From an uncultured Bacteroidales bacterium (lineage in GTDB: Bacteria; Bacteroidota; Bacteroidia; Bacteroidales; Muribaculaceae): 64,000 nucleotides of DNA. The stretch is taken from positions 1 through 64,000 of the forward strand of contig CAMWPM010000004.1 of assembly GCA_947176235.1 (NCBI GenBank). The letters are read 5' to 3'. A program made the translations under genes and the position numbers. The notes under the pieces are model-generated. The model did not search any database and was not told the origin of the DNA. It was given only the letters and a program-made list of their open reading frames with translations. Positions 15,861 to 56,139 of the stretch are shown piece after piece (within the stretch, counting starts at the first letter, position 1; each line of letters opens with the position of its first letter).

Positions 15861-16841
15861 TTAGTTTTTTAATGGATTAGTTGCGGTAAGAATAGTGGCT
15901 TTGCCTTTTAGATCTATAACCTTAAAACAAGCTGGGATAAGGATTGTTTCGCCTTTAACAGCTTTTAAATCAGTAGCGTCGGGGGCACTGACAGTAAGCT
16001 CGCCATCAATGACCATCAGAATGGTGAAGCTGCCGGGCGCTGCTTGCAATGTGTGGCTGCCGTCAAGCAGCAGGCGGTCGACCGTGAAGTAGGGACAGCT
16101 GACGAGGGTTGCTTCGGGAGCCTGGCGGTCGTAAGCCGTCAGATAGTCGGGATAGACGGTGTAGTCGATGGCTTCGCGCGCCTGTTCGGTGTGGAGTTCG
16201 CGGGGGGTCCCGTCGGCATCTCGGCGGTCGAAATCGTAGACGCGGTAGGTGATGTCGCTGGTCTGCTGTATCTCTGCAAGCAGGTTGCCGGCACCGATGG
16301 CATGGATGCGTCCGGCCGGAAGGAAAAATACGTCGCCGGGGTGCGAGGCGTGACATGCCACGTCGTCCATTATCGTTTTTTCAGCCACGTGGGCTGTGTA
16401 GTCGTCGGGGGTTATCGGGCGTGCGAGTCCGGCATAGATCCTGGCTCCCGGGTCGGCATCGATGATGTACCACATTTCGGTCTTGCCGAAGCTGCCATGA
16501 CGGCGACGGGCAAGCTCGTCGTCGGGATGAACCTGCACGGACAGATCGCCGCGGGCGTCGATGATCTTGACAAGGAGAGGGAATGTGGTGCCGTAGCGGC
16601 TGTAGGTGGTGTCACCGACAAGCTCGCCGCGGTATTCCTCGATAAGTGATGGCAGGCTGCGCCCTGCGAGGGGTCCGTCAGCCACGATACTTTCATGACC
16701 CGGGACGCCGGAAATCTCCCAGCTTTCGCCGACGCTGTTTAGGGACGTGGAGATACCTTTATACGGTGCGATTCGCTCGCCTCCCCAAATCACGGATTTG
16801 AGGTAGGGACGGAAACGCAGAGGATACAATGCTGTGCTCAT
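15861..16841 (-). CDS. manA: Mannose-6-phosphate isomerase, class I
   Basis: Interconverts mannose 6-phosphate and fructose 6-phosphate. The 326-residue protein is the short bacterial type I form. Expected zinc ligands are visible: Gln and His in LSVQVHPDDE (near residue 97), Glu in KTEMWYIID (near 120) and His in PAGRIHAIG (near 177). Arg in TYRVYDFDR is the usual catalytic residue. Its ATG overlaps the TGA of the giant repeat protein upstream (ATGA at 16841-16838), and glucokinase follows. It therefore seems to be read by translational coupling from the surface protein gene, or from a promoter within it that I could not identify. Confidence 0.93.
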   Translation of the reverse strand: MSTALYPLRFRPYLKSVIWGGERIAPYKGISTSLNSVGESWEISGVPGHESIVADGPLAGRSLPSLIEEYRGELVGDTTYSRYGTTFPLLVKIIDARGDLSVQVHPDDELARRRHGSFGKTEMWYIIDADPGARIYAGLARPITPDDYTAHVAEKTIMDDVACHASHPGDVFFLPAGRIHAIGAGNLLAEIQQTSDITYRVYDFDRRDADGTPRELHTEQAREAIDYTVYPDYLTAYDRQAPEATLVSCPYFTVDRLLLDGSHTLQAAPGSFTILMVIDGELTVSAPDATDLKAVKGETILIPACFKVIDLKGKATILTATNPLKN

Positions 16842-19800
16842 TTTATCAGAAGTTTCTGTCGTAGCCGGTCGATCTGAAGGATGTAGACGCCGGGAGGCAA
16901 CTCTCGGTCAAGCGGCTCGCTGATCCGACGTCCGGAGAGATCGTGAAGGCTTAATTGGTAATAGTCTCCAAATATATGTATTTTTCTGTTTGCAACCTCT
17001 ATTCTGACACCATTTTTTATAATTTTTATCAATTGGGTGGCTGTCACGTCTATGGGGACGGTGGTAAGCGTCAGCCATGGATAGCTTGCATGGGTGATGT
17101 GGGCGTGGAGTGAGGAATGGGACGTCAGGAAGGTGTACATGCCGTCGGTGTGCTCGTAATGCTCGTCGGACAGCTGACGGTGATCGGCGTCGTGCCACTC
17201 GATAATGTGACCAAGATAATCGCTGAGATCAATGGTGGCACCGTCGGCTACGAGTTCTATCGGTGACTGGTCGGCGGCTTGTATTCGCATGCACGTCTCG
17301 GGTAGATCCGGAATATGGTCGAAGTCGAGCGCATTACCGCTCAGGTCGATGGAGACGAGAGCCGGGAGGTCGATTATGTCAATGTCGGTCAGACCGATAC
17401 CTGCCACATCAAGCTCCTTGACATTTTCAGGGAAGTTGGCAGCGAGTGTGTACCCCTCGCCAGCCGGGATGCTTATAGTGGCTTCACCATTTACATAGGT
17501 CCCGCAGATGAGGGTCGGGGCGGAGGTGGTAACTCGGATCTCTCCGGGTTCTGTGCGGCTGTAGGTAAGACCGGCAACCGGCGTCTCGCTTACGCGCACT
17601 GATATGGGGCTGGTCTTCATCGTAAGCCAGTCTTTGGACAGGAGGGCATATATGCCGTCGTAATCCTGCGTGAATGTGTAGATGCCTTCGGATTCTTCAT
17701 AACCGTCAATCTCGTTTTCGCCATCGGTCCACGTGACCGTGACGCCGGGGTAGGCTGAGAGATCGACGGCGACGCCATCTACTCCTATCGTGATGGTACG
17801 CTCATTCTCGATCTCGACGTTGCATCCCGACGGGATGACGGGGAGATGGTCGAAACTAAGATCGTCGCCATAGAGTGTCAGTTTTTGGAACGAGGGCATG
17901 TGCTTTGCCTCCAGATGGGTCAGACCGATGCCTTTTATGGTCAGGCCAATGATTCGTTCGGGGTGATTGGTGGTGAGCGTGAGCTTTTTCCCGGCAGGAA
18001 GAGTTATCACGCCTTTCCCGTCCACTTCCTTGTCGTTGATTACAGTCGGGCCGGACGTGGTAATGCCGATTTCTCCGGGAGCGTCGAGTGCGTATGACAG
18101 TTCGGCTGCTTCGTAGGAGAAGATATCGATAGTTACCGGTACGGTGGTACGTGTCAGCCAGTCGCGAGTCACCACCGCATAGAGTCCCTCAAGATTGTCG
18201 AAGAAAGTGTAGACGCCGCTTTTCAGATCAAAATCATTGAATGGCTCGTCGCAGAGCATCCAGCTGATTTTGGCGTCGAGATAGTAGGGTGTCATGTCGA
18301 TGTTTGCGCCGTCAGCCCTTATTTCCAGTGGTTTCTGATTGTCGGCGATGACCTCGCATTCCTCGGGGATGATGGGTAAGCTTTCGAATCCAAGCTCGTT
18401 TTCGCTCAGATCGAGTTTCTTCATGTTTGGCAGGCGGAATACTGCCATCTCCCTTAACCCAATGTTGCGCAAAGACAGTTCGGCGATGTTTTCGGGATGA
18501 TTGGCTGTCAGCAGATAACTCTCACCTGCAGGCAGGACGGCTTTTGCGGTGCCGCTCATCTCTACGCCGTTGATTATCGTAGGGGCTGACAATGTGTAGA
18601 TGATGATTCCCGGCTCGTCGAGATGATAGCTTATGGCTGCCACATCGCTCTCCACCACGTCGATGGTTATTTCACTGGTCTTGACTGCCAACCAGCTTTT
18701 TGTCAGTTCTGCATGTAGTCCGGCGAAGTTCTTCTTGAACGTGTAGATTCCGTCTTTCACCGTGTAGTCGTTCACGGTGATGTAGTTCTGTTTCCAGACG
18801 ATTTTTGCATCTTGATATTTTGAAAGGTCCACGGAAGCTCCCACTGCTTCAATCTCAATGGACTTCTGGTTATTAGCAGTCACATCGCAATCCTTGGGAA
18901 GTATTGGTAGCGGAGCTTCAATGTCAAGTGCGTTATCATTGAGATTTAGTGCCTTAAGCTTTGGAAGATCGGCGAGATCTATTCGTGTGAGACCGATTCC
19001 GCTCAGATCCAGTCCAATGATATTCTCGGGATGGTTTGCAGTCAACGTGAACTCGCTTCCTGCGGACAGGTCAATCGTGCCTTCTCCATTTATCTCTTTG
19101 CCATTTACAAGTGTAGGTTGATTGGTGGTAACACTGATCGTCTTTGGCTCTGCGAGTTCGTATGCCAACGCCGCTGCCGTCGATTCAAGAGTATTGATAG
19201 AGATTTTGGTAGTCGTCAGAGTCAGTTCGCCCTTTGTCAGTTCCGCATGAATCCCCTCAAGATTTTCAGTGAAGGCATAGACGCCGTTATTTATGGTGTA
19301 TTTGTCTGCTGAAACAACAGTCTCGCCTTGTTTCCAAACAATAGTTGCGTCAGCATATTTCGATAGGTCGACAGTAGCACCGTTAGCCTTGATTTCAACA
19401 GGTTCCTGAGTCCCGTATGTCACCTTGCACCCTTCCGGCACAGTTGGCATCGTCTCGAATGTCAGCGCGTTGTCGCTTACGTCAAGCGCCTTAAGCCCAG
19501 GCAGATTCTCAATCTCAATGGCTGTCAAACCGATCCCGCTCACATCCAGTCCGATGATATTCTCGGGATGGTTTGCAGTCAACGTGAACTCGCTTCCTGC
19601 GGGCAACTCGATCGAGCCCTCGCCATCTATCTCCTTGCCATTTACAAGTGTCGGCGCAGAGGTCTTTATCGTAATCAGCTTCGGTTCTTTTAACTCGCAG
19701 GTCAATGTCGCGGCAAGTGATTCAAGAGTATTGATAGAGATTTTGGTAGTCGTCAGAGTCAGTTCGCCCTTTGTCAGTTCCGCATGAATCCCCTCAAGAT

Positions 19801-22003
19801 TTTCAGTGAAGGCATAGACGCCGTTATTTATGGTGTATTTGTCTGCTGAAACAACAGTCTCGCCTTGTTTCCAAACAATAGTTGCGTCAGCATATTTCGA
19901 TAGGTCGACAGTAGCACCGTTAGCCTTGATTTCAACAGGTTCCTGAGTCCCGTATGTCACCTTGCACCCTTCCGGCACAGTTGGCATCGTCTCGAATGTC
20001 AGCGCGTTGTCGCTTACGTCAAGCGCCTTAAGCCCAGGCAGATTCTCAATCTCAATGGCGGTCAAACCGATTCCGCTCAGATCCAGTCTGATGATATTCT
20101 CAGGATGGTTGGCAGTCAACGTGAACTCGCTTACTGCGGGCAAGTCGATCGTACCTTCTTCATTTATCTCCTTGCCATTTATGAGCGTCGGTTGATTGGT
20201 GGAAATGGTAATTGTTTTGGATTCCGAAAGCTCGTAGGTCAACGTTGCTGCCGTCGATTCAACACTATTAATCGAAATATCGGTAGTACTAATCTTAAGT
20301 CCACCTTTTGAAATTTCTGCATGGATATTGTCGTAATTCGCTGCAAAAGAATATTTGCCTCCGTCCGCATCATAAGCGGTAATCTCTTCTCCATTACTTT
20401 TCAACCACCTTACTGTAAATCCCTCACCATAGTCCGACAGATCTACTGAATTCCCCACTACTGAAATCCCGATCTTTTTTTGATTATCAGCAGTCAGTTT
20501 ACAGTCATCCGGCAGTGCCTTATCAAGAATATCAAAACAAAGAGAATTATCACTGACGTCAAGCGACTTAAGTTTCTGTAAGCTTATGATTACAAAGTCC
20601 GTAAGTCCAACACCGTTTATTTTCAGTCCAACGATATTCTCAGGATGATTGGCTGTCAGCGTGAACTCGTTTCCTGCAGGCAAAACGATATCCCCGGTTT
20701 CTATAATATTTTCTCCATTGACAATCGTGGGAGCCGAGACTGTCACATGTATGATTCCCGGTTTAAAAAGCTCATATTTTAGCGAAACAACATCCTCTTC
20801 AACATCATCGATAGTAACTGCGGATGTGCACAACTTCAACCAGTCACGGTTTTTATCCGTCAATTCCGCATGGATTCCTTCATAATTCTTTGTAAAAAAA
20901 TATTTGCCGTTCGACTGCTGGTAATCAGTAGCCGGAACCGCGTCTTCCCCCTTTTTCCAAACGATATTTGCACTATCCACATAATTTGATAAATCCACAG
21001 TTACCCCGTCAGCAATAATTGGAATTATTGCCTGATTATCAGCAATTATCTTACAGCCGTCCGGCACCACTACCTCACTGGCAAACGTCAGATTATTCCC
21101 AGACAGATCAAGCGTTTTCAACCCAGTCAGTTTCTCGCCATTAAATCCCGTAACACCCGCATCCTTCAGCACAATCCCCTCAATCGCCTCCGGAACATTA
21201 GAGAAAAAAGTGTAATTCTCCGATGAAATATTAAACTCATTAAAACCTTGTGATAATTTACTTTCAAGAAATGGAGTTAGAGAGACAATCGAGATCTCAT
21301 TTATTGTATTAATATTTATTGTCGATATCTCCTTCTTATTACTTATAAAGGAGAAAACTTTTGTAAGCTTCTCAGGTATTCCTATAACTATGCAATCGTC
21401 ATATATTTGTCCCCAAAAAGAATTAAACCAAAAGTCATAATCACTGTCCGCATTGATGTATACTTTGATTTTTTCTTCCATGAATTCTTTTACAAATTCT
21501 TCTTTATTATTATCAAGAACAACAATTTCAGGGCAAGAATTATCAATTATTATTCTTTTTAAGGACGGACAATTTTTAAAGAAACCAACCTCAATCTTCA
21601 AATTTTGATTAACATAATTCGAGAAATGAATTGTATGAAGATTTGGGCAATCAAAAAAAGCATTTTCACAAACCTTTGTTAGATTATACGCATCAATTGT
21701 AACTGAATATAAATCCTTACACTTATTAAAAGCATAGGGTGAAATTTCAGTGATATTTGTTGTTTCAAGACCTGCAGGAGTAATTACATCAGGGATGGCG
21801 ATATCACCACTATATAGATTTCCCCTATCTTGAGCATCTGTACTTCCAACTATAAAATAACCAGCATTGTACTCCTGCACATATTTATAATAAACTGGAA
21901 TACCATCTACATTGTTGACTACATAGTCAGCATCAGCCGCATAAAGGGTTATTGAATTTGCAGCAAAAATTATTGCAACAAAAAGTAATAGTAATTTTTT
22001 CAT
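16838..22003 (-). CDS. Giant exported repeat protein with BspA-like LRR start and about seven 179-residue repeats
   Basis: A 1721-residue exported protein. After a signal peptide (MKKLLLLFVAIIFAANSITL, about 1-23) comes a BspA-type leucine-rich region (about 75-165, with ITEISPYAFNKC and CENAFFDCPNL). Then come one partial and seven full units of about 179 residues. Each unit has a beta-rich part (TLTANHPENIIGL), one LRR-like step (LPGLKALDVSDNALTF), a VDLSKY...IVWKQG part and a YAFTENLEGIHAEL part. The last 55 residues (LHDLSGRR, LPPGVYILQI, KLLIK) look like a type A C-terminal secretion tail. Probably a surface adhesin or binding protein; the ligand is unknown. The ATG at 22003 starts a cleaner signal peptide than the one at 22018. 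The 5' half is much more AT-rich than the 3' half. Confidence 0.85.
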   Translation of the reverse strand: MKKLLLLFVAIIFAANSITLYAADADYVVNNVDGIPVYYKYVQEYNAGYFIVGSTDAQDRGNLYSGDIAIPDVITPAGLETTNITEISPYAFNKCKDLYSVTIDAYNLTKVCENAFFDCPNLHTIHFSNYVNQNLKIEVGFFKNCPSLKRIIIDNSCPEIVVLDNNKEEFVKEFMEEKIKVYINADSDYDFWFNSFWGQIYDDCIVIGIPEKLTKVFSFISNKKEISTININTINEISIVSLTPFLESKLSQGFNEFNISSENYTFFSNVPEAIEGIVLKDAGVTGFNGEKLTGLKTLDLSGNNLTFASEVVVPDGCKIIADNQAIIPIIADGVTVDLSNYVDSANIVWKKGEDAVPATDYQQSNGKYFFTKNYEGIHAELTDKNRDWLKLCTSAVTIDDVEEDVVSLKYELFKPGIIHVTVSAPTIVNGENIIETGDIVLPAGNEFTLTANHPENIVGLKINGVGLTDFVIISLQKLKSLDVSDNSLCFDILDKALPDDCKLTADNQKKIGISVVGNSVDLSDYGEGFTVRWLKSNGEEITAYDADGGKYSFAANYDNIHAEISKGGLKISTTDISINSVESTAATLTYELSESKTITISTNQPTLINGKEINEEGTIDLPAVSEFTLTANHPENIIRLDLSGIGLTAIEIENLPGLKALDVSDNALTFETMPTVPEGCKVTYGTQEPVEIKANGATVDLSKYADATIVWKQGETVVSADKYTINNGVYAFTENLEGIHAELTKGELTLTTTKISINTLESLAATLTCELKEPKLITIKTSAPTLVNGKEIDGEGSIELPAGSEFTLTANHPENIIGLDVSGIGLTAIEIENLPGLKALDVSDNALTFETMPTVPEGCKVTYGTQEPVEIKANGATVDLSKYADATIVWKQGETVVSADKYTINNGVYAFTENLEGIHAELTKGELTLTTTKISINTLESTAAALAYELAEPKTISVTTNQPTLVNGKEINGEGTIDLSAGSEFTLTANHPENIIGLDLSGIGLTRIDLADLPKLKALNLNDNALDIEAPLPILPKDCDVTANNQKSIEIEAVGASVDLSKYQDAKIVWKQNYITVNDYTVKDGIYTFKKNFAGLHAELTKSWLAVKTSEITIDVVESDVAAISYHLDEPGIIIYTLSAPTIINGVEMSGTAKAVLPAGESYLLTANHPENIAELSLRNIGLREMAVFRLPNMKKLDLSENELGFESLPIIPEECEVIADNQKPLEIRADGANIDMTPYYLDAKISWMLCDEPFNDFDLKSGVYTFFDNLEGLYAVVTRDWLTRTTVPVTIDIFSYEAAELSYALDAPGEIGITTSGPTVINDKEVDGKGVITLPAGKKLTLTTNHPERIIGLTIKGIGLTHLEAKHMPSFQKLTLYGDDLSFDHLPVIPSGCNVEIENERTITIGVDGVAVDLSAYPGVTVTWTDGENEIDGYEESEGIYTFTQDYDGIYALLSKDWLTMKTSPISVRVSETPVAGLTYSRTEPGEIRVTTSAPTLICGTYVNGEATISIPAGEGYTLAANFPENVKELDVAGIGLTDIDIIDLPALVSIDLSGNALDFDHIPDLPETCMRIQAADQSPIELVADGATIDLSDYLGHIIEWHDADHRQLSDEHYEHTDGMYTFLTSHSSLHAHITHASYPWLTLTTVPIDVTATQLIKIIKNGVRIEVANRKIHIFGDYYQLSLHDLSGRRISEPLDRELPPGVYILQIDRLRQKLLIK
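19182..19522 (-). repeat. 341-bp exact direct repeat, copy 1
   Basis: Identical base for base, by eye, to 19719-20059, at an offset of 537 bases (179 codons), inside the giant repeat gene. Other units of the same protein differ strongly, so this pair is recent. Confidence 0.9.
19719..20059 (-). repeat. 341-bp exact direct repeat, copy 2
   Basis: Second copy of the exact repeat at 19182-19522. The first mismatch on one side is at 20060 (G against T at 19523). Flanking bases remain similar but diverge. Confidence 0.9.
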
Positions 22004-22015
22004 GACAGGAATTAA

Positions 22016-22033
22016 CAAATTTAAGCAAATTTA
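22016..22033 (-). promoter_or_regulatory. Two tandem TAAATTTG boxes before the giant repeat gene
   Basis: On the minus strand TAAATTTG occurs at 22033-22026 and again at 22023-22016, ten bases apart. Each matches the -7 consensus TAnnTTTG, but no well-spaced -33 element was found. Confidence 0.4.
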
Positions 22034-22171: not shown

Positions 22172-23377
22172 TCAGGATTCCGTCAGGAATTGTCGGAGTG
22201 ACATTAATTTGATGCCGTCGAAAGTATTTGGCGCGGAATCATGAAGCGTGACAACGATTTTCTCAAAATTATCTGAAATATCTGCTAGATTTCCAAACTC
22301 CCGGTCCGCCGTAGAGGTGTTATTTACGTTTACGGCTACCTGTATATATCGGCGTTCGTTATTTTTTTCAGCTATGAAATCAATTTCGCGACCTGATATC
22401 AATGTGCCAACTTTAACTTCGTTGCCGTCGGATATTAGTTTATTGTAGACGACATTTTCCAGCAGTCCTCCTATGTCCATCGGGCGGTAACCGATAATTG
22501 CGTTTCGGATTCCCAGATCTTCAAAGTAATATTTTTCACCTATTTCAAAATACTTTTTACCCTCTATATCCCATCTCCTGACTCTGTTTATCAAATATGC
22601 TTCACAGATATAATCTACGTACGTCTGTACGCTCGTCACAGTCCCCTTGATACGTTGTGATTTCAGATAGTCTGCTATTTTTTTTGCTGTAAAAATCTGC
22701 CCGATATTGTCAGCGAGAAAAAGCATCATCCGCTGTAGAAAGTCATTGTTTCGTATAGAGTGGCGGCTCACTATATCGCGGTATACCAATGCTTCCGAAA
22801 TTCCAGTAAGGTATTCCATCCATGTCTCGTGTGAAGGTAAATTCCTCAGGTATGGCATACCTCCGTGACGTAGGTATAAATCAAGACTTATATCCGAATC
22901 TGAAAAAGAATGGAACTCTAAAAATTCAGTGTACGAAAGAGGATGTACTCGGATTTCAATACTCCTTCCTGCAAGTTTCGATGCAATCTCCGACGATAAC
23001 ATAGCCGAATTACTTCCTGTAACGTATATATCGTTCCGCGAGTCAAGATTAAGAGATCTTACAACTTTTTCAAAACCGTCAACTTCCTGAATCTCATCAA
23101 TAAAAATGTAATTTTTTCGATCCGAGGAGTAATTAGCCATTATTTCTGTATGGAGAGCGTCGGCATCGATAATATGGGAGAATGTGTAATCCTCCAGATT
23201 TATTGTAATGAAATTTGCGTTAGGATTCTGACGGCGGATTTCTTGTTCAACCGAATTAAGAATATAACTTTTCCCTACCCGTCGTTGCCCGGTTAGAATC
23301 TTTATCAGACCGCTATTGACGTAAGGAAGAATCTTTTTCAGATAATGAGGCCGAGGTATGTTTGCGAGAGTTTCCAT
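22172..23377 (-). CDS. AAA_14/DUF4143 ATP-binding protein
   Basis: A 401-residue ATPase. Visible are a Walker A motif LTGQRRVGKSYIL (about residues 29-41), a Walker B motif YIFIDEIQEV (near 93), a sensor-like VTGSNSAML, and a C-terminal DUF4143 domain that ends with a nuclease-like GREIDFIAEKN segment. Such proteins are very common in Bacteroidales and vary between strains; their function is not settled. The chosen ATG lies inside the first unit of an 80-bp tandem repeat. Translation from a non-ATG codon 60 bases upstream is possible but would read repeat sequence. Low GC compared with most of the window suggests acquisition by transfer. Confidence 0.85.
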   Translation of the reverse strand: METLANIPRPHYLKKILPYVNSGLIKILTGQRRVGKSYILNSVEQEIRRQNPNANFITINLEDYTFSHIIDADALHTEIMANYSSDRKNYIFIDEIQEVDGFEKVVRSLNLDSRNDIYVTGSNSAMLSSEIASKLAGRSIEIRVHPLSYTEFLEFHSFSDSDISLDLYLRHGGMPYLRNLPSHETWMEYLTGISEALVYRDIVSRHSIRNNDFLQRMMLFLADNIGQIFTAKKIADYLKSQRIKGTVTSVQTYVDYICEAYLINRVRRWDIEGKKYFEIGEKYYFEDLGIRNAIIGYRPMDIGGLLENVVYNKLISDGNEVKVGTLISGREIDFIAEKNNERRYIQVAVNVNNTSTADREFGNLADISDNFEKIVVTLHDSAPNTFDGIKLMSLRQFLTES

Positions 23378-23553
23378 TATATCATAAACTTTTTGCAAAA
23401 ATAATAAAAGTTTCCAATATACTGGAAGCTTTTCCAAAATTCTCTCAAAGCTTCCATTATATCATAAACTTTTTGCAAAAATAATAAAAGTTCCCAATAT
23501 ACTGGAAACTTTTCCAAAATTCTCTCAAAGCTTCCATTATATCAGAAACTTTC
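23372..23553 (-). repeat. 80-bp tandem repeat, 2.2 copies, over the ATPase start
   Basis: Units at 23372-23451 and 23452-23531 differ at about two bases, and a partial third begins at 23532. Each full unit has, on the minus strand, TATTTTTG (a -7 match) and an ATG with GATATA just before it. The ATG of the first unit is the start of the ATPase gene. From each ATG of units 2 and 3 a 26-codon ORF (MEALREFWKSFQ..., ending KKFMI) runs to a TAA that overlaps the next ATG as TAATG. No further gene was seen between the repeat and the lipoprotein gene at 23686. Confidence 0.85.
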
Positions 23554-23685
23554 TTATGCTTTATTATGGTCAAATAAAAAAAATTATATAGTTTTGATGA
23601 AATATAAGACGTTTAACAACCTATCAGTCACAATTATCAATATCTAAACATTCTTGATATAAGTTTGTGTATAAATTTGGATTGG

Positions 23686-24099
23686 TTATCTTCTAACTAA
23701 TTTTAAGACAGCTGCATAGGAATTGTTTCGGAGAAGATATATCACATTTTTATTGAATTTTATTACGTCATACACACCTCCATCTGACGTGTATAACACA
23801 TCGTCAATAATTTCCCAATCCCACTCGGTTTTATCACCATTGTAGTAGATGTCATAACCCTTACCATCGGACTTGAACGTAAAATACATATAGTGCTCAG
23901 TAATGCGATTATCATTTAAATCAAGATTATCAATATCGTCGTATGACATCGTTCCGAGAAATTCAGAGTCCCATTCTCCAATGATTATTTTGCTAATCGT
24001 TGTAGTTCCTGGATCTTTGTCATCATCATTACATGATGTTAATCCCATACAAACGGCGATTCCAAGAAGTAAGCTAAAAAAGAGTTGTATTTTTTTCAT
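23686..24099 (-). CDS. Small lipoprotein, lipocalin-like
   Basis: A 137-residue protein with a lipoprotein signal (MKKIQLFFSLLLGIAVCMGL then TSCND; the Cys is at residue 23). The mature part starts with a short acidic linker followed by strands such as IIIGEWDSEFLG, MYFTFKSDGKGYDIYY and EWDWEIIDDVLYT. These resemble the lipocalin-like lipoproteins common in Bacteroidales, anchored to the outer or inner membrane. No function can be named. It sits alone in the AT-rich island behind the ATPase gene, and may or may not be related to it. Confidence 0.75.
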   Translation of the reverse strand: MKKIQLFFSLLLGIAVCMGLTSCNDDDKDPGTTTISKIIIGEWDSEFLGTMSYDDIDNLDLNDNRITEHYMYFTFKSDGKGYDIYYNGDKTEWDWEIIDDVLYTSDGGVYDVIKFNKNVIYLLRNNSYAAVLKLVRR

Positions 24100-53750: not shown

Positions 53751-55049
53751 TCAGCGGGATGAGCGTCGGGCCTGGGACGCGAGGATGCGGTGACCGAGAC
53801 GGCAGTAGAGGCATTTACGTGTCTCGCAGTAGGAGCGCCGGAGGCGTAGGAGTGCCTGTGAAGTGAATGCGTCGGGACAGGGGATGCCTGCGCGGGAGAA
53901 AAGAGCTACGATGGAGTTGCGCTCGGGGGCGAGCGCCTGAAGGATAGAGAAGGCGCGAGCCACGTGTGTGTCGGATCCCGTGGACTGACCGTAGGCGTGG
54001 AGGAGGGGAACTACGACATTGATGACGAGGAGATGGATGGAGGCGCGGGAGAGTGATGCGGGGGCGGAAACGGGAGCGCCGCTGAACGTGTAGTGTTCGT
54101 GCCAGAAGCCGGAAAGTCCGGCAGAGAACAGAGCGGCGGCTTCGTCGGGGGTGGTGACGGCGAGCAGGCGTGACATAAGGCGGAATCCTCCGTGGAGCAT
54201 TGCGGCGAGCAGGGCGATGCGTCGGTGAGGAAAGTTCTGGGGGCGCATCCTCGACATTTTCCATCCGAGCGACTGCGGTTGCTGCAATCCGAACTTCGCG
54301 GCGTAGAACCGATAGTCGGTGACGAGTCGGGAGAGGTAGGGATGGGAGAGATCGGTGAGGGAGTCGAGCAACCCAGCCTGTCCGAAGAGGATGGCTTCAA
54401 GAGCGGGGAGAGAGTCGGAGTGCTTGCGGAGCGCGCGGAGGGGGAGGGAGAGGGCGAGGCGTTGGAAGGCATCGGCGTTGATACCGAATCCGAGGGCGCG
54501 TGCGAGGGTGACGTAGCACGTCTCCTCCCAGTCGCCGGTGAAGCGGGAGTGGAGCGAGAGGGCGCGGTCGGATTTCTCGTAGACGCGCTCGTAGGCGAGA
54601 GCGGAAATCCAGTCGTTGACGTAGATCGGGGGGATGGATGCGAGACGATCGGCACATGCAAGCTCGGATGCGGGATGATTGATCATGGCAGCGTAGCGGT
54701 CGGCGAAGTCGGGGGCACAAGGCATGATGAGCTGCGGGATGATCTCGGAAGAGCTGCCACGGCGGCGGACAGGCATGTCGTCGCGGTCCACGACGTGGAG
54801 AATTACGGAATCGTAGGCGGGGTCGGAGTCGTGGTGATGGCGGAACCAGTCGCTTGCGCGGACGTGGATCTCGACGTTGCCTACCCATGTGCGACCGTCG
54901 ATGCGGATCTTGGCGTTGAAGAAGTCGGGTCCGGCGTCGGTGTTGAGCAGCCCCGGGTCGATGACCTGAACGACCCTGCCATCGACAGTGCGCATGTCGG
55001 GGGCGAGCCAAAGGCGATGCTGCCAGACGTATTGCATAAGACGCTCCAT
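53751..55049 (-). CDS. DUF2851 family protein
   Basis: A 432-residue protein of the DUF2851 family, which is almost confined to Bacteroidetes and has no known function. The conserved start MERLMQYVWQHRLW leads into DPGLLNTDAGPDFFNAKI and VGNVEIHVRASDW (about residues 32-65), which has the look of a nuclease-type or sugar-binding beta core; the rest is mostly alpha-helical, with a Cys-containing end (RKCLYCRLGHRI). I chose the ATG at 55049 because the 77 codons upstream are unlike any family member and cover the promoter. Divergent from the WYL regulator. Confidence 0.8.
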   Translation of the reverse strand: MERLMQYVWQHRLWLAPDMRTVDGRVVQVIDPGLLNTDAGPDFFNAKIRIDGRTWVGNVEIHVRASDWFRHHHDSDPAYDSVILHVVDRDDMPVRRRGSSSEIIPQLIMPCAPDFADRYAAMINHPASELACADRLASIPPIYVNDWISALAYERVYEKSDRALSLHSRFTGDWEETCYVTLARALGFGINADAFQRLALSLPLRALRKHSDSLPALEAILFGQAGLLDSLTDLSHPYLSRLVTDYRFYAAKFGLQQPQSLGWKMSRMRPQNFPHRRIALLAAMLHGGFRLMSRLLAVTTPDEAAALFSAGLSGFWHEHYTFSGAPVSAPASLSRASIHLLVINVVVPLLHAYGQSTGSDTHVARAFSILQALAPERNSIVALFSRAGIPCPDAFTSQALLRLRRSYCETRKCLYCRLGHRILASQARRSSR

Positions 55050-55101
55050 AGAAACAGGCGGGGCTTGGGGGTGAGACAAAACCGGTGAGAGAACTTCAAC
55101 G

Positions 55102-55109
55102 CAAAGATA
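55102..55109 (-). promoter_or_regulatory. -7 element for the DUF2851 gene
   Basis: TATCTTTG on the minus strand, about 53 bases before the start codon. No clear -33 element. Confidence 0.45.
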
Positions 55110-55233
55110 GTGAAATAAACGGAAAAAGCGGAAATTAAAATACTTTAACAAGCGAGTACCTGATAACGGCTCGTAAAAATAGTAATTTAGCGGACAGAAA
55201 AACCGGCAGCAAAAACGAGATGATAAAATAGAA

Positions 55234-56139
55234 ATGGCAAAAGACCTATTTGAAAGATACCTCTGGATTCTTGAGATCATACAGCGATACGGGCGAGTGA
55301 CCCGTCAGGAGTTTGATGCGCGGTGGGTGCGTTCGAAGTTTGGTGACCGCGGACCGCTCCCTCGCCGTACGTTCTACAACTACCGCCAGGCGATCGCCGA
55401 CCTCTTCAAGGTGGAGATCATGTATGACCCGACAACATTCGAATACTACATAGAGGATGAAAGCCGCCATCATGAAGCCGTGACCAACTGGCTCCTGAAC
55501 GCTTCGGCGGTGAATGACGTGCTGAGCGACTCGCGGGAGATAGCGGGCCGAGTGTTCCTGGAGGATGTGCCATCGGCACGTGAATATCTGCATGTGGTGA
55601 TGGATGCCGTGAAAGAGAATCATCCGGTGAAATTCGACTATGCGCCGTACACGCGTGTGAATCCGAAGCGCGGCGTGGTGGTGGAACCGTACTTTCTGAA
55701 ACTATTCAAGCAACGGTGGTATCTGACGGGACGTAATGTAGATGACAACGCAATCAAGACGTACGCGCTCGACCGTATGCTGGGCGTGAAGCTGCTGAGC
55801 GAAAAATTCGAGATGCCAGAGGACTTTGACGCCGAATCATTCGTTGCCGACTCCTTCGGCATCATCTTCAATCAGGGTGAGGTGAAGCGCGTGACGCTGA
55901 AGGTGGAAAGCCGCCAGGCAAAATATCTTCGCGCACTCCCGCTGCATCCGAGTCAGGAAGAATTCATGCACGATTCGTTCTCCCTCTTCCATTACCGGCT
56001 GCGACTGACTCCCGACTTCGTGCAGGAGCTGCTGTCAAAGGGTCCACAGGTGACGGTGGTGGAGCCGCCGGAGCTGAAGGCAATGGTGGTGAGCCAGCTT
56101 AAGGAAGCCCTTGCCAACTACGAATCAGATAACAAATGA
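55234..56139 (+). CDS. WYL-domain transcriptional regulator
   Basis: A 301-residue regulator. The N-terminal part (1-70, LFERYLWILEIIQRYGRVTR) has the winged-helix pattern of these proteins. The WYL domain (about 120-200) has FDYAPYTRVNPKRGVVVEPY then FLKLFKQRWYLTGRNVDD, where the WYL triad reads WYL exactly. A C-terminal extension follows (KRVTLKVESRQAKYLRALPL). WYL domains bind nucleic acid or nucleotide ligands, and many such regulators control DNA-damage or phage defence genes; no defence genes are near, so its targets are unknown. It may control the genes downstream or its divergent neighbour. Confidence 0.9.
   Translation: MAKDLFERYLWILEIIQRYGRVTRQEFDARWVRSKFGDRGPLPRRTFYNYRQAIADLFKVEIMYDPTTFEYYIEDESRHHEAVTNWLLNASAVNDVLSDSREIAGRVFLEDVPSAREYLHVVMDAVKENHPVKFDYAPYTRVNPKRGVVVEPYFLKLFKQRWYLTGRNVDDNAIKTYALDRMLGVKLLSEKFEMPEDFDAESFVADSFGIIFNQGEVKRVTLKVESRQAKYLRALPLHPSQEEFMHDSFSLFHYRLRLTPDFVQELLSKGPQVTVVEPPELKAMVVSQLKEALANYESDNK

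Follow-up and report, generated by a model that had tools for sequence, protein, structure and literature searches.

A Muribaculaceae protein of eight short cap–LRR–Ig units behind a BspA-like head, a candidate surface-displayed rod

The window analysed here, a stretch of 64,000 nucleotides from an uncultured Bacteroidales bacterium of the Muribaculaceae family (GenBank assembly GCA_947176235.1, contig CAMWPM010000004.1, positions 1 to 64,000), contains on its minus strand an intact open reading frame (16838–22003), stop-free throughout, that encodes a 1,721-amino-acid protein. The product consists of a signal-peptide-like start, a BspA-like leucine-rich repeat (LRR) head, eight tandem units of 177–181 amino acids each, and a short C-terminal tail. 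Each unit is a reduced version of a module that is distributed more widely in the Bacteroidota and combines a beta cap, an LRR array and an immunoglobulin (Ig)-like domain. We propose, at a probability of roughly 0.55, that the protein is an exported, surface-displayed modular rod, in which the eight units form a stalk, the head is placed at the tip, and the tail directs export and anchoring. The frame starts with ATG at 22003, its TGA ends at 16838, and a second in-frame start candidate, TTG at 22018, lies upstream of the ATG. Within its own genome the whole protein has a single match.

Eight tandem units and their predicted fold

The repeat region spans residues 225–1654. Alignment of the units delimits unit 0 (residues 225–405, positions 20789–21331), unit 1 (406–585, 20249–20788), unit 2 (586–764, 19712–20248), unit 3 (765–943, 19175–19711), unit 4 (944–1121, 18641–19174), unit 5 (1122–1299, 18107–18640), unit 6 (1300–1476, 17576–18106) and unit 7 (1477–1654, 17042–17575). 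When the protein was compared with itself at lags of 100–259 residues, lag 179 alone exceeded 14% identity, reaching 20.6%. The seven copies of the motif L[TA][AT]N[HF]PE[NR] lie 180, 179, 179, 178, 178 and 177 residues apart. A preliminary description, made from the sequence alone, had recognized this tandem repeat of about 179 residues and counted seven full units and a partial one; the count is now eight, since unit 0 is full length, with a degenerate first half that lacks TLTANHPEN, and is additionally matched by a profile built from the window units themselves. Pairwise protein identity between units is 29–60%, with the exception of units 2 and 3 (91%), and 19 columns are invariant across all eight units.

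Units 3 and 4 were modelled with AlphaFold2 using an alignment (A4) that combined seven overlapping unit pairs of the window protein with eight segments from relatives, which yielded a mean pLDDT (predicted local distance difference test) of 93.7 and a predicted template-modelling score of 0.73. A fold predicted from the single sequence of the same two units was poor (pLDDT 56); its fold matches were all LRR proteins, and the alignment-based model was preferred. In the first modelled unit (model residues 1–179 corresponding to unit 3, and 180–357 to unit 4), the cap strands fall within residues 2–43, the LRR region has four strands at 52–56, 62–66, 75–77 and 96–98, and an Ig-like set of strands extends to about 172, after which the next cap begins at 177. 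The model thus confidently predicts a unit made of a small beta cap, an LRR arc of three to four strands, and an Ig-like domain. Structure prediction had been proposed in the preliminary description as a check, and for the two units modelled it returned a compact repeated fold. The LRR strands fill only about 50 of each 179 residues, between the Ig and cap parts, in agreement with the earlier statement that the protein is not a continuous LRR solenoid, and the two beta-rich parts then noticed in each unit correspond to the modelled cap and Ig-like domain. The lone LRR-like step assigned to each unit was right in that the LRR is very short, but slightly low as a count: four strands are modelled and LRR_4 covers about two steps.

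Comparisons with known structures, for which the best 50 matches of each fold list were considered, suggest the class of fold only. Model residues of about 103–175 align with Ig domains (Z 5–6, root-mean-square deviation (rmsd) of about 3 over about 70 residues), and the top match (Z 6.6, 127 aligned residues, rmsd 12.6) superposed both Ig parts on a pair of Ig domains. The Listeria internalins InlH, InlB and InlC align loosely across the model (Z 5.4–6.0, rmsd 17.7–22.5), with InlH reaching Z 6.0 for 197 aligned residues at an rmsd of 17.7. Their order of cap, LRR and Ig parts is also the one predicted for the window unit. The internalin cap is helical, whereas that of the window protein is predicted to be a beta cap, followed by a tiny LRR; the window protein also differs from the internalins in having eight tandem units and no LPxTG motif. 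The NCBIfam internalin J model matches three relatives, with 78.1, 45.9 and 36.7 bits (cut-off 1700). Foldseek returned no match at E ≤ 0.001, and no solved protein with this repeat was present among the matches listed; this gives no evidence of a new fold.

In Pfam searches of the whole protein, LRR_4, LRR_8 and LRR_1 exceeded their cut-offs, LRR_4 reaching 75.2 bits (cut-off 27) over seven stretches, and LRR_5 was found in the head. For the eight units scanned singly the best match was LRR_4 (E 1.3e-4), three half-units of the window scored at most 23.3 bits (cut-off 27), and LRR_5 matched none of the eight units at E ≤ 1. No Pfam family convincingly covers the cap or the Ig part in scans of the whole protein and the units, and the NCBIfam scores of the whole protein, like those of relatives, stay far under the cut-offs. 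A sequence search of the PDB found LRR proteins, the best of which match at LRR positions; similarly, among the best 60 of 236 PDB matches to a profile of the LRR and Ig parts, the best stretches begin in LRR positions. Among the papers listed in literature searches, none describes the unit, judged by titles and the beginnings of abstracts. These results agree with the earlier remark that the unit is not known as a named domain, as Pfam and NCBIfam name its LRR parts only and no strong match of the unit to a Pfam domain set was found. The carbohydrate-binding family CBM_X2 (PF03442) was weighed as a name for the Ig part but is no more than a weak lead: at E ≤ 1 it matches none of the eight window units, and in the Ig parts of two relatives, L040 (20.6 bits) and L034 (16.0 bits), it stays below the cut-off of 28.9.

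Relatives of the unit and the range of repeat lengths

Of 297 genomes in the family, 79, from 18 of 30 genera, are matched at E ≤ 0.001 by the profile built from the eight window units (A1), with the window's own genome counted here and in the order, phylum and second family searches below. Many of the matched proteins are about 1,190–1,260 amino acids long, and the matched region is their LRR end and Ig part. In the sequences inspected, this long form opens with a beta cap, in which VDWGDG or a similar motif is frequent, continues with several LRR steps and closes with an Ig part that carries the motifs VDLS..., W and DYT...GVFTF...C.MTN..FP.L.L.T. A profile built from relatives only, searched with filters off against a database of the eight window units alone, matches all eight of them (best-domain E from 4.7e-25 to 1.3e-11). 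For example, the long-LRR proteins L032, L038 and L041, homologous to the window protein by profile, share with it the three-part module and the Ig motifs VDLS, W and G.[YF].F. They have a period of about 330–380 residues with many LRR steps and two or three modules in those read, whereas the window protein has a period of 179 residues with three to four LRR strands and eight copies. Their Ig part also contains CxMTN..FP with a cysteine, while in the window units this position is taken by AELT or a similar sequence, with no such cysteine.

The spacing between the starts of successive Ig matches connects the two forms. It equals the unit length of 177–181 residues in the window protein, 204 in a protein of genome G046, 224 in L040, 244 and 372 in L044, and about 329–381 in L032, L034–L039 and L041–L043. 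Because the periods of 204, 224 and 244 residues bridge the gap to those of about 330–380, the 179-residue unit stands at the minimal end of a continuum and, on the sequence comparisons, is a cut-down form of a wider cap–LRR–Ig module with a variable LRR array. The expectation of a new repeat family was borne out in part: the repeat is compact, its non-LRR parts have no Pfam name and it has Bacteroidales relatives, but it is a shortened form of a wider module. Likewise, the profile search recommended in the preliminary description did find many relatives, but most are of the long-LRR form, and clearly reduced units outside the window were seen only in three of the four genomes of one other genus (G046, G066 and G083 of g26). 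G046 encodes one protein with two reduced units and a second with a single one; G066 and G083 have one each, in frames that hit contig ends, so that further units are possible there. The second G046 protein (L076, 918 amino acids) repeats the layout of the window protein, with a BspA head (LRR_5 at 95 bits, cut-off 27.7), a reduced unit and a similar tail in the same order. It differs in having one unit instead of eight, and its head and unit are separated by an additional stretch in which Big_2 scores below threshold (16.6 bits, cut-off 22.8).

At the order level, 5 of 393 genomes match profile A1 at E ≤ 1e-6, and at the phylum level 15 of 395 match the LRR–Ig profile (A5) at E ≤ 1e-5; these thresholds are stricter than that of the family search, and the rates are not directly comparable. 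In a second family search, which covered 397 genomes overlapping the first set and scored at most eight candidates per genome, 14 genomes had matches at E ≤ 1e-10. Of the ten loci found by the A3 scan of named genome contigs, two are from Muribaculaceae, one of these being 100% identical to a match from genome G181 of the window's family, and two from Bacteroidales; Bacteroides, Bacteroidaceae and Prevotella multiformis account for one each, and three more lie in records that bear Firmicutes names. The last three (L034, L036 and L038, named Pseudoflavonifractor, Lachnospiraceae and Clostridium, respectively) have Muribaculaceae-type proteins inside. The segments of L034 and L036 also stand in genomes placed in the window's family (L007 and L022), so that the Firmicutes names of these two are probably wrong, and we do not claim a spread to Firmicutes. 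Plasmids, phages and viral contigs gave no matches, and a whole-protein scan of genome contigs returned 65 stretches with no relative confirmed. In another family of the phylum, the LRR–Ig profile matches inside a 5,626-amino-acid open frame (L053, G956:C2:47445-47834).

We consider it an even proposition that these proteins represent an unnamed module family of the Bacteroidota, whose LRR array varies freely from about three strands upwards between a beta cap and an Ig-like end. Reach and specificity would be tuned by lengthening the array or, as in the window protein, by shrinking it and repeating the entire unit after a BspA head. Genes with the module are probably annotated as leucine-rich-repeat proteins only: although it is present in 79 of the 297 family genomes, no Pfam or NCBIfam name was found for its cap and Ig parts. 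Naming it would help in studying how the Muribaculaceae, which are common in the gut, attach to what surrounds them.

Export, the proposed stalk and its alternatives

The N-terminal residues 1–24 (21932–22003) read by eye as a signal peptide, and the protein is apparently secreted. The head (residues 25–224, 21332–21931) contains a BspA-type LRR_5 match (PF13306) at residues of about 83–159, with 45.4 bits against a cut-off of 27.7, in line with the BspA-like start recognized earlier. The likeness to BspA-type LRR proteins is limited to these approximately 75 residues, the units being free of LRR_5. The C-terminal tail (residues 1655–1721, 16841–17041) has the layout LHDLSGRR...PGVYIL...KLLIK, whose order resembles the short type IX sorting signals (motifs B, D and E) of Prevotella intermedia described in PMC11969387. 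The genome encodes SprA, the translocon of the type IX secretion system (SprA_N, 608 bits, E 6.4e-183). A profile of relatives' tails, chosen by a GxY motif, matches residues 1683–1721 with a whole-protein E of 4e-5, compared with 1.8 for the best of 200 shuffled tails. We regard type IX export of the protein as plausible and rather likely. The end of the Prevotella multiformis relative (L041:1614-5603) matches DUF6383 (30.9 bits, cut-off 23.7), which may be a marker of sorting tails; DUF6383 was not among the Pfam matches reported for the window protein.

The following arrangement is the one we infer. The C-terminal tail would direct export and anchoring, most probably via the type IX system, and anchoring at this end would put the N-terminal BspA-like head at the far tip of the molecule. 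The eight near-equal units, with short linkers between them, would build the stalk, having arisen from a cut-down cap–LRR–Ig module that was multiplied by recombination. From the tip, the head could contact host glycoproteins, diet-derived polymers or other bacteria, and the units may additionally bind ligand, weakly and repeatedly. Bacteroidota LRR surface proteins linked to adhesion or internalization include AdpC and AdpF of Prevotella intermedia and InlJ of Porphyromonas gingivalis, according to reference titles in PMC11969387 and to PMC5915736. The eight-unit protein could also serve as a small, foldable model for asking whether three to four LRR strands between two beta domains are stable and able to bind.

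Several observations weigh against this proposal. The choice of tails by a GxY-type motif favours the window tail, which shares that motif, and the match itself is small. With a profile built instead from 41 distinct ends of module-containing frames, some of them cut, the overall E value was 0.0074 and that of the best domain 0.054, the best shuffled tail giving 1. No Pfam or NCBIfam sorting domain matches the window protein at E ≤ 10, and Por_Secre_tail (PF18962) was found in the genome at one place, on contig C8, outside the window protein. The sorting tail named in the preliminary description is accordingly retained as a short sorting-like layout with a weak match to relatives' tails, without a match to the PF18962 model. 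Every fold match lies under Z 8, and no experiment on the unit was found in the literature. Finally, a stalk and an array of binding elements are not separable by conservation, because mean identity between units is much the same for the cap (43%), LRR (45%) and Ig (41%) parts.

Such a multivalent array is the alternative that survives best, although we regard it as rather unlikely. In that case the units themselves would be the binding elements, each short LRR face and its Ig partner binding the same repeated ligand, such as a glycan or mucin, and the head would be a cap only. The conservation of motif positions across all eight units is consistent with this, as is the composition of the long-form relatives, which consist mainly of such modules: LRR_5 is found in none of six relatives' frames (some cut) at E ≤ 1, and the long-form frames of L032 and L041 lack it at E ≤ 0.1. 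The sub-threshold CBM_X2 matches of L040 and L034 would also fit a glycan ligand. However, an LRR arc of three to four strands offers little surface, CBM_X2 matches none of the window units at E ≤ 1, there is no sign of a binding pocket, and the second genus with a reduced unit also pairs it with a BspA head. A structural surface-layer or matrix component, with long repeats assembling side by side, would agree with a long repetitive beta protein in a genome that has SprA. We consider this improbable, given the single match in the genome, the finding that no other genome among the 397 of the second family search exceeds two matches at E ≤ 1e-10, and the different neighbour found at this place in six relatives.

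Composition along the gene and its neighbourhood

Units 2 and 3 (19175–20248) share an identical run of 341 bases, covering most of the LRR and Ig part, and differ in their caps; because of this run, the sequences indicate a recent duplication or conversion. Short-read assembly could mis-resolve copy number over such a run. Among 15 comparisons of sub-domains, eight yielded a synonymous rate (dS), each above the nonsynonymous rate (dN), and seven were saturated. Unit 7 was considered as the ancestral unit and dropped, as units 2 and 3 gave the best scores against relatives.

The GC content at fourfold-degenerate sites is 0.16 in the head, 0.46, 0.40, 0.51, 0.51, 0.48, 0.59, 0.74 and 0.66 in units 0 to 7, and 0.46 in the tail, an overall climb that is not strictly monotonic and is spread over several units. 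From units 0–1 to units 5–7, third positions of identical amino acids changed 137 times from AT to GC and 39 times from GC to AT, counts that are summed over six non-independent unit pairs, five of which have P < 0.05. From the first to the last fifth of the gene, GC rises from 0.27 to 0.62, more steeply than in all 25 other frames picked in the window, the nearest being frame 53751–55280 (0.48 to 0.72). Among eight relatives' proteins, the first fifth is often lower in GC (0.60 to 0.77; 0.31 to 0.47), and none rises as much. Although the climb at fourfold sites from 0.16 in the head to 0.74 in unit 6 and the possibly mis-resolved run in units 2 and 3 might suggest a chimaera, formed by recombination or assembly from an AT-rich 5' part and older repeats, this is improbable for a gene with one intact frame, dN below dS, a GC rise spread over several units, and an order of head, unit and tail that recurs in G046.

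The low-GC head end adjoins an AT-rich island upstream (22172–24099). Two genes lie in it: one encodes an AAA_14/DUF4143 ATPase, the other a small lipoprotein-like product that no Pfam family matches at E ≤ 0.01. The GC at third codon positions is 0.33–0.38 in the island genes and 0.59–0.76 in 15 other picked genes of the window. On the opposite side, the stop codon of the gene and the start codon of the downstream gene, which we take to be phosphomannose-isomerase-like, share the four bases ATGA (16838–16841), and translational coupling of the two is possible. Inspected by eye, six relatives have a different gene upstream of the counterpart of this downstream gene, so the place of the window gene looks like a variable slot. 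Within the island, an 80-base tandem repeat of 2.3 copies, 97% alike, is located at the start of the ATPase frame (23372–23552).

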